From Mugil cephalus (lineage: Eukaryota; Chordata; Actinopteri; Mugiliformes; Mugilidae): DNA of 64,000 nt. Each line of letters opens with the position of its first letter. The first letter of the stretch is position 1. The translations under genes and the position numbers were made by a program. The notes below the pieces were generated by a model, which did not search any database, was not told the DNA's origin, and saw nothing but the letters and a program-made list of their open reading frames with translations. Shown one piece after another: positions 43,907-51,823 of this stretch. The stretch covers positions 8,000,379 through 8,064,378 of the forward strand of contig NC_061776.1 in the NCBI RefSeq assembly GCF_022458985.1, written 5' to 3'.

Positions 43907-44724
43907 TTAGGTGTCTTTTTTCTCTACGTGCAGTTTAAGGTGCAGTTTCAGGATGCTCATGTGATTGAAAGTCTCACCGCATATCTCGCAGCTGAAGGAC
44001 TGCTGCTCTGTGATTTTTTCACACTGGTGCCTCTGGAACATGTTGAAACTCTCAAAGCTCTGCCCACAACTCGAGCATATAAAACTGTTTTCCCCAGGGG
44101 CGTCCCCGCAGATGTCCTCGTGGTCGCTTGAGGCTGTTACATTAAACTCAAAGACGCCTCCCCCGTGAGACCCGTCGCTCGCTGCGCTGTAATCATTCCC
44201 AGAAACCTCATGTTTGATATGTTGATCATGTGGCTCAGGTGCTAAAGTTATCTCCAAGCTTCTTGGTTGCATTCCTCTGACTGAATACTGATGGTTGTGC
44301 AACACGTCTTCCTTCTCTTTGTCTAGGAAAGGCGGATGTTTGATTGGTGTTGGGTATCCCTGCAGTTCACCAGGTGCTCCAGCAGCAGGGCTCAGGTGAA
44401 ACTTGACATCTTGTAAAAGTACACAAACAGATTCTTCAGGAGCTTCACCACTCGCATTGATTGCAGGTGGCCACAGCTGACTTTGCTCGGCGGCTCCTGT
44501 GCTACTAGCACTCCCACCCTGACTTAGAGTCTGGAGATCCTCCCTGTTAGGCTCCAGCCTTACCACTACTGCTTCCTTGTTAACCGTCTCGCTGTAGATG
44601 TGGCCTGGTAATGGTTCCTCTAACGGCGCCAGTTGGTTCTTGGGTTCAACCGTGTTCTCCAACACATGGTTCTCAGGAATTGTAAACATCAGTTGATGTG
44701 TCTCGAGCACATCCGTCTTCTCAC
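43907..44724 (-). CDS. Zinc-finger gene 2, exon 4 (third, degenerate finger pair)
   Basis: Acceptor in T-rich tract, tgttaag|GTGAGAAG, phase 1. It ends with a finger whose His-x3-His has become His-x-Cys (FQRHQC), then an intact C2H2 finger and a charged tail EKKDT. Confidence 0.82.
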
Positions 44725-50700: not shown

Positions 50701-51823
50701 ATTGTGCGCTAAATTGTGCATTTTCATTCCTGAGAAGTCCTGTGAGTCCTGGATTCGTGCAGCATTCACGATAAGCTGCAGCCAGCTCTCATATTTTAAT
50801 TGCAGAAATTCTGACATCTGCTGGAATCAAAACCACAGTCACATAGAAATGTAGGAAAACTGTATTAATCTGAGTAAATTGTTTAGATTGTTGTTTCGAA
50901 ATGGAATTTGCAACCTGTCACAAAAAGCATTTCTTTCCTCTAAATTGTGCATTTTTATCCATGAGAGGTCCTGTATCCATGCAGCTTTCGTGTGTGCTTC
51001 TTATTTACTATTAGATGATCACGAAGGAGTTGAATACGGAACCAGACGGAAGACCAGACTTGCCACTCCAGCCGTGTGGAGTTAATTCACAGAAACAAAG
51101 TGTGCGAGACAAAACCGTGGAACAACAAACCTACAAACATCTGAGGTGTAGTTTATATATAGCCTTGATGTGTGTGCACATGTTTTGTGCTGAGTGATGT
51201 GTGTGTGATGCGTGTATTCTGGTTTACTCAACGCTGATCTTGGCCATAGATTCACTAGGACAGATGTTTCCTGTTTTGGTCAGATTTGGTTGTAAGCCTG
51301 GGAATTCTGGCTTGTTATTCTGATGTACGAGGTCACGCTGACCTGAACCACCCCCCTCCTCCCTCCCCACGCCACACACAAACACAAACACACGGTGGAA
51401 ATGGTGCGCGAGGTCACCCTATCCTATTTACTTTACGCATTTCCTTCATTACAGCCTGTTTATTGTTTAACTGTCTATCCATCCCTCCATCCATGCATGC
51501 ATGCACAGGCACATGGCATTTCTCCAACACTTCCAAGACCTGACTCTGGAGGACCAGTGCCAGGCTGACACGGTGCTCTCTCTCGGGTCCAGCTCACCAT
51601 CTCTGCGCCGCAGGGTCTCCGCCTGCTGCGTCGCCCTCAGCTCCCCGTGCAGCACCTCGACGTCGCTCTTCAGCTTCTTGATCTCGTTTTCCCGCTGACA
51701 CATCTCCAGCCGCAGCACCACCATGCCATCCTCCACAAGTTTGGAGATTTCTGCCACGGCAGCTTTGGACAGAGCTTCAATAACGGAGGCGATCTGAGCG
51801 CGCAGGGCTCCGCTGCTCAACAT
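43907..51823 (-). CDS. C2H2 zinc-finger protein built from three tandem finger-bearing exons (gene 2 of cluster)
   Basis: Predicted 789 residues from exons 51823-51598, 48673-48086, 46573-45836 and 44724-43907. Every junction is GT-AG and phase 1; lengths 226, 588, 738 and 818 close exactly on TAA. Residues 1-75 are the shared coiled-coil module ([20 protein letters not shown]). Exons 2, 3 and 4 each hold an acidic linker with a SUMO-type site ([23 protein letters not shown]) and a C-terminal finger pair. Exon 2 has [21 protein letters not shown] and [25 protein letters not shown] fingers, exon 3 close relatives of both, and exon 4 a degenerate C2HC first finger plus [17 protein letters not shown]. 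Exons 2 and 3 each have an in-frame stop shortly past their donors, so shorter proteins ending in two or four fingers are conceivable. The alternative is separate genes, but only one first exon is visible in the interval. Probably a nuclear transcription regulator; orthologue unknown. Confidence 0.75.
44859..45358. mobile_element. Full-length mariner-type MITE (family A reference copy)
   Basis: 500 bp with imperfect inverted ends (CCAATCAGCCACAAGATTAA on the left; 'ttatgcctgattgg' on the right) and TA on both sides. No coding capacity. Internal fragments match mariner-family transposase reading on the opposite strand only in small blocks. It lies in intron 3 of zinc-finger gene 2. Confidence 0.82.
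45836..46573 (-). CDS. Zinc-finger gene 2, exon 3 (second finger pair)
   Basis: cttcaacag|AAATTC ... AGACG|gtaaga, 738 bases, phase 1-1. Fingers [17 protein letters not shown] and [17 protein letters not shown] closely match those of exon 2; the first finger's recognition helix (RAGHLER) is identical. Without splicing it would run 15 more codons to a stop. Confidence 0.85.
47482..47772 (+). repeat. Mariner-type MITE family A
   Basis: Shares 'gggttgaggggaggggcctt', 'atcccacagatactcgatca', 'gtcaggctgcatcctgctgc' and the right end 'gtcataatgttatgcttgat' with the other copies. Lies in intron 2 of zinc-finger gene 2. Confidence 0.75.
48086..48673 (-). CDS. Zinc-finger gene 2, exon 2 (first finger pair)
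   Basis: tgtccacag|AAAGTC ... GGAGGC|gtaagt, 588 bases, phase 1-1. Two intact C2H2 fingers joined by HTGEKPY. The donor itself holds an in-frame stop (C|GT AAG TAA), so an unspliced message would end two codons later. Confidence 0.85.
49058..49252. repeat. Minisatellite, ~21-bp unit
   Basis: About nine imperfect copies of GCTAAATGTGGGTTAAGTGT in tandem, in intron 1 of zinc-finger gene 2. Confidence 0.85.
49876..51005 (+). repeat. Threefold tandem duplication next to exon 1 of zinc-finger gene 2
   Basis: The order 'ttctgacctctgctggaata', 'tgtacttgtaaaagcggctg', 'gtttgaagcacaataactct', 'ctaaattgtgcatttttatc' appears at about 50005-50300. It recurs at 50480-50770 and partially at 50800-51000. 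The sequence between copies 1 and 2 (50310-50345, 'ctctggaggaccggtgtcag') also occurs at the exon 1 donor side (51546-51580), so the unit derives from the exon 1 flank. Confidence 0.75.
51598..51823 (-). CDS. Zinc-finger gene 2, exon 1 (N-terminal module)
   Basis: ATGTTGAGCAGC... to AGAGATG|gtgagc. Hydrophobic helix [18 protein letters not shown], then a charged heptad-like helix ([20 protein letters not shown]). Confidence 0.82.

Follow-up and report, generated by a model that had tools for sequence, protein, structure and literature searches.

Whether a zinc-finger gene of Mugil cephalus has been enlarged by tandem copying of a whole finger-bearing exon, with the copies stacked in one protein, or whether its finger exons serve as alternative ends or as remnants of separate genes, is the question raised by this locus. 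The gene under study, here called gene B, is read from the minus strand within the window, by which is meant the whole 64,000-nucleotide stretch of DNA analysed (C7:8000379-8064378 of a 634.8-Mb genome in 24 contigs), and has the following parts.

51598..51823, minus strand: exon 1, 226 nt coding, with an ATG start and the phase-1 donor ATG/GTGAGC
48086..48673, minus strand: exon 2, a linker (VKCE, W motif) and two intact C2H2 fingers at 48239-48093; symmetric 1-1
45836..46573, minus strand: exon 3, a linker (MKVE, W motif) and two intact C2H2 fingers at 45989-45843; symmetric 1-1
43907..44724, minus strand: exon 4 (terminal), a linker (W motif, VVRLEP), one broken finger and one intact finger at 43990-43928
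43909-43907, minus strand: the stop codon TAA of exon 4

Joined in the order 1-2-3-4, the exons meet in phase 1 at every junction and give an open frame of 789 residues, and the coordinates, the lengths of the three finger exons, or cassettes (588, 738, and 818 nt for exons 2, 3, and 4), the phases and the joined frame agree exactly with those of a preliminary description made from the sequence. Because all junctions are in phase 1, the frame is kept when exon 2, exon 3, or both are skipped: the subsets 1-3-4, 1-2-4, and 1-4 yield 593, 543, and 347 residues. An end after exon 3 yields 532 residues with exon 2 or 336 without it, and an end after exon 2 yields 273, read-through past exon 2 or exon 3 reaching a stop after 2 or ∼15 codons and giving complete small proteins. 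When exons 2, 3, and 4 were each shuffled 2000 times with dinucleotide composition kept, no shuffle stayed open in frame; exon 4 has 271 open codons. Codon-usage scores compared with shuffles (z of −0.4, 0.4, and 1.6, from a weak training set that relied on guessed frames for three other exons) do not separate the exons from shuffled sequence, and codon usage was dropped as an uninformative test of coding.

The three cassettes had been described as sharing one plan, comprising an acidic linker, a SUMO-type motif and two C-terminal C2H2 fingers, and this holds in part. The Pfam model zf-C2H2 recovers two fingers each in exons 2 and 3, but one in exon 4, at 24.7 bits against a cut-off of 25.2, and the zf-C2H2_4 model marks two weak stretches there. 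In the first finger of exon 4 H-x-C replaces the normal histidine spacing, and this finger matches a profile of local fingers only partially, at 3.0 bits. The linkers of exons 3 and 4 are acidic (net charge −14 and −23), whereas that of exon 2 is hardly so (−3). In exon 2 and in exon 3 the KxE motif comes early in the linker (residue 30 of 142 and residue 33 of 192, respectively), whereas in exon 4 it comes late (168 of 213). When the linkers are aligned, VVRLEP of exon 4 lies opposite VQVKCEP of exon 2; the alignment is loose because MKVE of exon 3 also falls outside that column, and a KxE-type motif occurs by chance in 11-18% of shuffled linkers.

Gene B belongs to a family whose other members provide the standard of comparison. 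Its exon 1, the product of which is read here as a coiled-coil-like family N-terminus, matches the first exons of two neighbours, gene C (E 6.5e-19) and gene A (E 2.3e-10), and searches of family first exons with Pfam and NCBIfam return no domain above cut-off.

53035..55495, minus strand: neighbour gene C, first exon from 55495, single four-finger last exon ending at 53035
36804..40025, minus strand: neighbour gene A, first exon from 40025, single four-finger last exon ending at 36804

The genome contains 14 matches to the first exon of gene B at E ≤ 0.01 and 21 matches to that of gene A at E ≤ 0.1, and 14 aligned first exons have in common a pattern resembling QLASIMExLAKAAVAEIxKLVDDG. Family first exons stand in tandem on contigs C7, C2, and C20. 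The DNA behind 16 of the 21 matches was read (all except C20:20660290, C20:11816790, C2:10109637, C2:10102730, and C5:11598927). A scan for the finger pattern, over stretches that varied from ∼1.5 kb upward, finds one finger exon behind 13 of the 16 first exons, the counts of single exons being lower bounds, two behind 2 of them, and three in gene B, making 20 finger exons overall. The usual last exon of the family consists of a linker, often with KxE, followed by fingers, so each cassette of gene B resembles one whole family last exon. KxE is present in 11 of the 20 linkers, a count in which 10 linkers were taken from the start of the open frame rather than from an acceptor and to which gene E contributes VKLE. 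One tryptophan is common to all seven family linkers aligned; the alignment was used in place of a regular expression for KxE...W, which overlooked four of the seven. First exon and linker-finger exon are joined in phase 1 in gene B, as given by the joined frame, and in genes A and C, where donors were scored and acceptors placed by eye. Gene B thus departs from the family plan of a single finger exon, carrying three behind one first exon.

Two other family loci, both on C2, have two cassettes (C2:11173271-11169577 and C2:31834509-31830655, with first exons at C2:11.178 and C2:31.837 Mb). At each of them one first exon is detected, and the first cassette ends in a stop with no donor scoring above 4 before it; these loci could use their cassettes as alternative last exons in the manner of insect fruitless, or could contain an undetected extra first exon. 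Elsewhere in the window, exons of an inward-rectifier potassium channel are seen at 5.9-9.5 kb and a Tc-type transposase-like fragment, below the Pfam cut-off, at 25931-26299 on the plus strand.

The evidence that bears most directly on the arrangement of gene B lies at the 3′ ends of exons 2 and 3. Scored with weight tables, the splice sites of gene B are good, the acceptor of exon 4 included, except for the medium donor of exon 2 (GGC/GTAAGT, with C at −1), whose score of 4.9 places it in the top 6% of minus-strand GT sites; the donor of exon 3 (ACG/GTAAGA) scores 8.6. Both are in phase 1 and both lie exactly 7 nt past the last His codon. No phase-1 donor is found between the last His codon and the stop in the 18 remaining family finger exons, among them exon 4 of gene B; 16 of these (again including exon 4) were scanned at a score above 4 and two at a score above 3. 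Across the window, sites scoring as high as the exon 2 donor occur once per 248 positions, and sites scoring as high as the exon 3 donor once per 2509. Neither tblastn nor a profile of 14 family first exons detects a first exon between the cassettes, in keeping with the earlier statement that exon 1 is the sole one in the interval; the three family first exons detected in the window are at 51.8, 55.5, and 40.0 kb. The introns likewise reveal no hidden first exons or finger relics. The two donors in the same place, together with the lack of a detected first exon between cassettes, favour a single transcription unit in which two of the finger exons are internal, and exons 2 and 3 are most simply read as internal exons or as descendants of such.

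Comparison of the cassettes bears on how they arose. Pairwise alignment of the three exons, which had been proposed as a check, was carried out on the fingers and the linkers. Over 53 finger positions exons 2 and 3 are 74% identical and are nearest to each other, against at most 57% between either of them and nine finger pairs from four neighbour genes. Their DNA matches at 79% over 165 bases, a block that spans both fingers and stops at the exon ends. With the same-place donors and the lack of detected inner first exons, this supports the earlier proposal that the gene expanded by whole finger-bearing exons. A genome search with exon 2 likewise returns exon 3 as the best other match (68%, E 2.4e-19, among the best 150 of 1864 candidates). 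The first-finger helix RAGHLER is indeed identical in exons 2 and 3; the conclusion once attached to it, that the duplication is fairly recent, is not borne out by the remaining comparisons and was set aside. Over the 57 codons of the finger block dN is 0.17 and dS is 1.94 (NG86) or 1.66 (ML), the latter values being near saturation over so few codons and giving no date, and only 4 of 10 fourfold sites are alike. The linkers are barely alignable (27% over 91 residues, E 0.012), and past the donors introns 2 and 3 have in common just a dispersed repeat. These values point to an old divergence under purifying selection (dN/dS ∼0.1), which would itself keep RAGHLER in both exons.

The finger pair of exon 4 is 42% and 40% like those of exons 2 and 3, compared with 26-34% for the nine neighbour pairs, and these identities weakly suggest that the three cassettes group together; that exon 4 is the oldest of them, as previously proposed, is plausible. 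In a genome search at E 1e-6 exon 4 returns itself alone, neither exon 2 nor exon 3 appearing among the best 142 of 989 candidates. In a tree of fingers, exons 2 and 3 pair by their first fingers, with a support of 0.705, whereas their second fingers form no clade; the best score of the exon 3 second finger is with neighbour gene D. The latter two results count against a simple history. A retrocopy was considered as proof of splicing and set aside, exon 2 having no second close copy and exon 4 returning only itself among the candidates scored.

The introns and the 3′ flank contain two further features that were evaluated.

47480..47780, minus strand: dispersed repeat in intron 2, with relatives, mostly inverted, in intron 3 at 45362-44859
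43802..43807, minus strand: ATTAAA, a poly(A)-signal-like hexamer ∼100 nt downstream of the gene B stop

The repeat has at least 53 matches in the genome (best 40 of 3840 candidates scored) and, being dispersed and mostly inverted, was rejected as a footprint of the duplication. ATTAAA occurs also ∼625 nt past exon 2 and 1008 nt past exon 3, where it may mark earlier transcript ends. Neither intron 2 nor intron 3 contains AATAAA, and the first 900 nt past exon 4 likewise lack it; its absence was therefore dropped as proof that exons 2 and 3 are internal, because exon 4 has none nearby either. The CpG profile was rejected as a promoter marker because windows at exons 2 and 3 (up to 0.93 and 0.86) exceed that at the first exon (0.79). 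Within 49893..51577 on the minus strand, in intron 1, a local duplication (50768-50357 and 50290-49893) has copies that are 78% alike, the only two found in a genome search with it. A 34-base piece here is 94% like the flank directly past the exon 1 donor, and one copy has, by eye, an exon-like reading of 34 residues. The same intron holds, at 49250-49059, a short array of tandemly repeated TTAGCACA-like units.

Taken together, the comparisons made on the DNA itself suggest that in gene B a finger exon was multiplied in tandem behind one first exon and that the copies are stacked in one protein, a reading to which a probability of about 0.62 is assigned. The main rival is the use of alternative last exons as in insect fruitless, with the first exon joined to one of the three cassettes to give proteins of 273, 336, or 347 residues. 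The stops 2 or ∼15 codons past exons 2 and 3, which would complete such small proteins, are consistent with it, as are the ATTAAA hexamers ∼625 and 1008 nt beyond these exons, and the two-cassette loci at C2:11.17 and C2:31.83 Mb, where the first cassette has no donor, suggest that exclusive use may occur in the family. An early stop past the donor is nevertheless expected in any case, since GTAAGTAA read in phase 1 itself yields TAA, and exons that were purely terminal would need no phase-1 donors in the same place; at a score above 4, none is found before the stop in the 17 cassettes of other genes. Exclusive use of the cassettes is accordingly considered quite doubtful. A mixed arrangement appears slightly less doubtful, and is put forward tentatively: three phase-1 cassettes that may be both stackable and selectable, from which as many as seven in-frame proteins could arise (789, 593, 543, and 347 residues if ending in exon 4, 532 and 336 if ending after exon 3, and 273 if ending after exon 2). 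If true, gene B would be a fruitless-like switch in a fish gene family, varying the number of DNA-binding modules per protein, and a related modular plan may recur at the same two loci on C2.

A different route to the same final protein, whose odds overlap with those of tandem exon multiplication, is the fusion of three tandem two-exon genes into one unit through loss of the inner first exons and poly(A) sites. In favour of such a fusion are the resemblance of each cassette to a whole family last exon, the tandem first exons on C7, C2, and C20 and the affinity of the second finger of exon 3 to gene D. Exons 2 and 3 are, however, nearest to each other, and no relic of a first exon is detected between the cassettes, although relics would fade; fusion is possible but somewhat unlikely. 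It is very improbable that exon 4 is a decaying leftover and that exons 2 and 3 make up the working gene. The broken first finger of exon 4 and its failure to match anything but itself in the genome at E 1e-6 (best 142 of 989 candidates) would fit such decay; on the other hand, its 271 codons are open, as in 0 of 2000 shuffles, and the exon keeps an intact W motif, one intact finger and a good acceptor.

Under tandem multiplication with stacking, the history and the product of gene B can be outlined. From the usual family plan of a coiled-coil-like first exon and one linker-and-finger last exon, gene B would have departed by tandem copying of the whole last exon, its upstream copies having acquired a phase-1 donor immediately after the last finger, or having carried one over in the copying, and thereby having turned from terminal into internal exons. 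The main spliced product is predicted to be the 789-residue protein, in which finger pair 1 would follow an N-terminal self-association segment. After a linker of ∼190 residues would come finger pair 2, whose first-finger helix is that of pair 1, and a second linker, of ∼215 residues, would lead to one working finger at the end; of the three finger pairs, two could be working and the third would be half broken. We infer a regulator that binds DNA in the nucleus; its chains would pair through the first exon product and could be SUMO-modified at the KxE sites. Its two complete finger pairs, set almost 200 residues apart, would be partly redundant, each reading ∼6 bases with a preference in common, for which the recognition code predicts GGG from the R-H-R helix, and a dimer would carry four complete pairs and could make multivalent contact with short DNA sites.

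Finger genes usually alter their specificity by extra fingers within one array. Copying a whole linker-plus-finger exon would instead place separate DNA-binding modules on one chain, each of them skippable, and gene B would be a clear case of how a terminal exon may turn internal, by acquiring a donor just past its last finger. The plan is a real yet modest variation on a known architecture, and its effect is local. A literature search met no published account of it, which does not prove that none exists.

The closest comparisons are within the same genome, where neighbour genes A, C, D, and E resemble gene B in having a first exon, a linker with KxE and W, and C-terminal fingers, but differ in their single cassette of two to four fingers with no phase-1 donor found before the stop. 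Among more distant systems, Broad-Complex has several finger-bearing exons behind common 5′ exons and uses one of them per transcript. Insect fruitless has the same plan; according to PMC3852243, one of its five finger exons is picked per transcript, whereas the donors of gene B suggest stacking. The FiNZ genes of cyprinid fish, as described in PMC10547256, encode a FiNZ domain of 28 residues and have their finger array in a single exon; they are fish C2H2 genes with an N-terminal domain exon and a finger exon, and are likened to gene B by plan alone. Exons 2 and 3 of gene B fit homologous symmetric internal exons (588 and 738 nt, phase 1-1), with the 79% DNA match confined to the finger block, and tandem exon duplication in which the copy is retained jointly with the original is described for a vertebrate transcription factor, COE/EBF, in PMC2394523, although the exon duplicated there is the helix of an HLH motif rather than fingers.

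In the same genome, a series of finger-bearing exons of another kind lies at C2:21198350-21209550, at least two of them apparently joined through a phase-1 intron. Here a two-finger exon (C2:21.209 Mb), whose phase-1 donor scores 9.26, precedes a seven-finger exon whose phase-1 acceptor was placed by eye. This locus resembles gene B in that a two-finger exon is followed by a phase-1 donor and a further finger exon; it differs in that no first exon of gene B's family is found at E ≤ 0.01 within the 40 kb examined. The view that the arrangement of gene B is unusual is therefore upheld within its family, where it is seen behind 1 of the 16 first exons examined, but not across the genome, since the C2:21.20-21.21 Mb locus also appears to stack finger exons through a phase-1 intron. 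Given that stacking and the tandem exon duplication known from COE, gene B is best counted as a modest variant.
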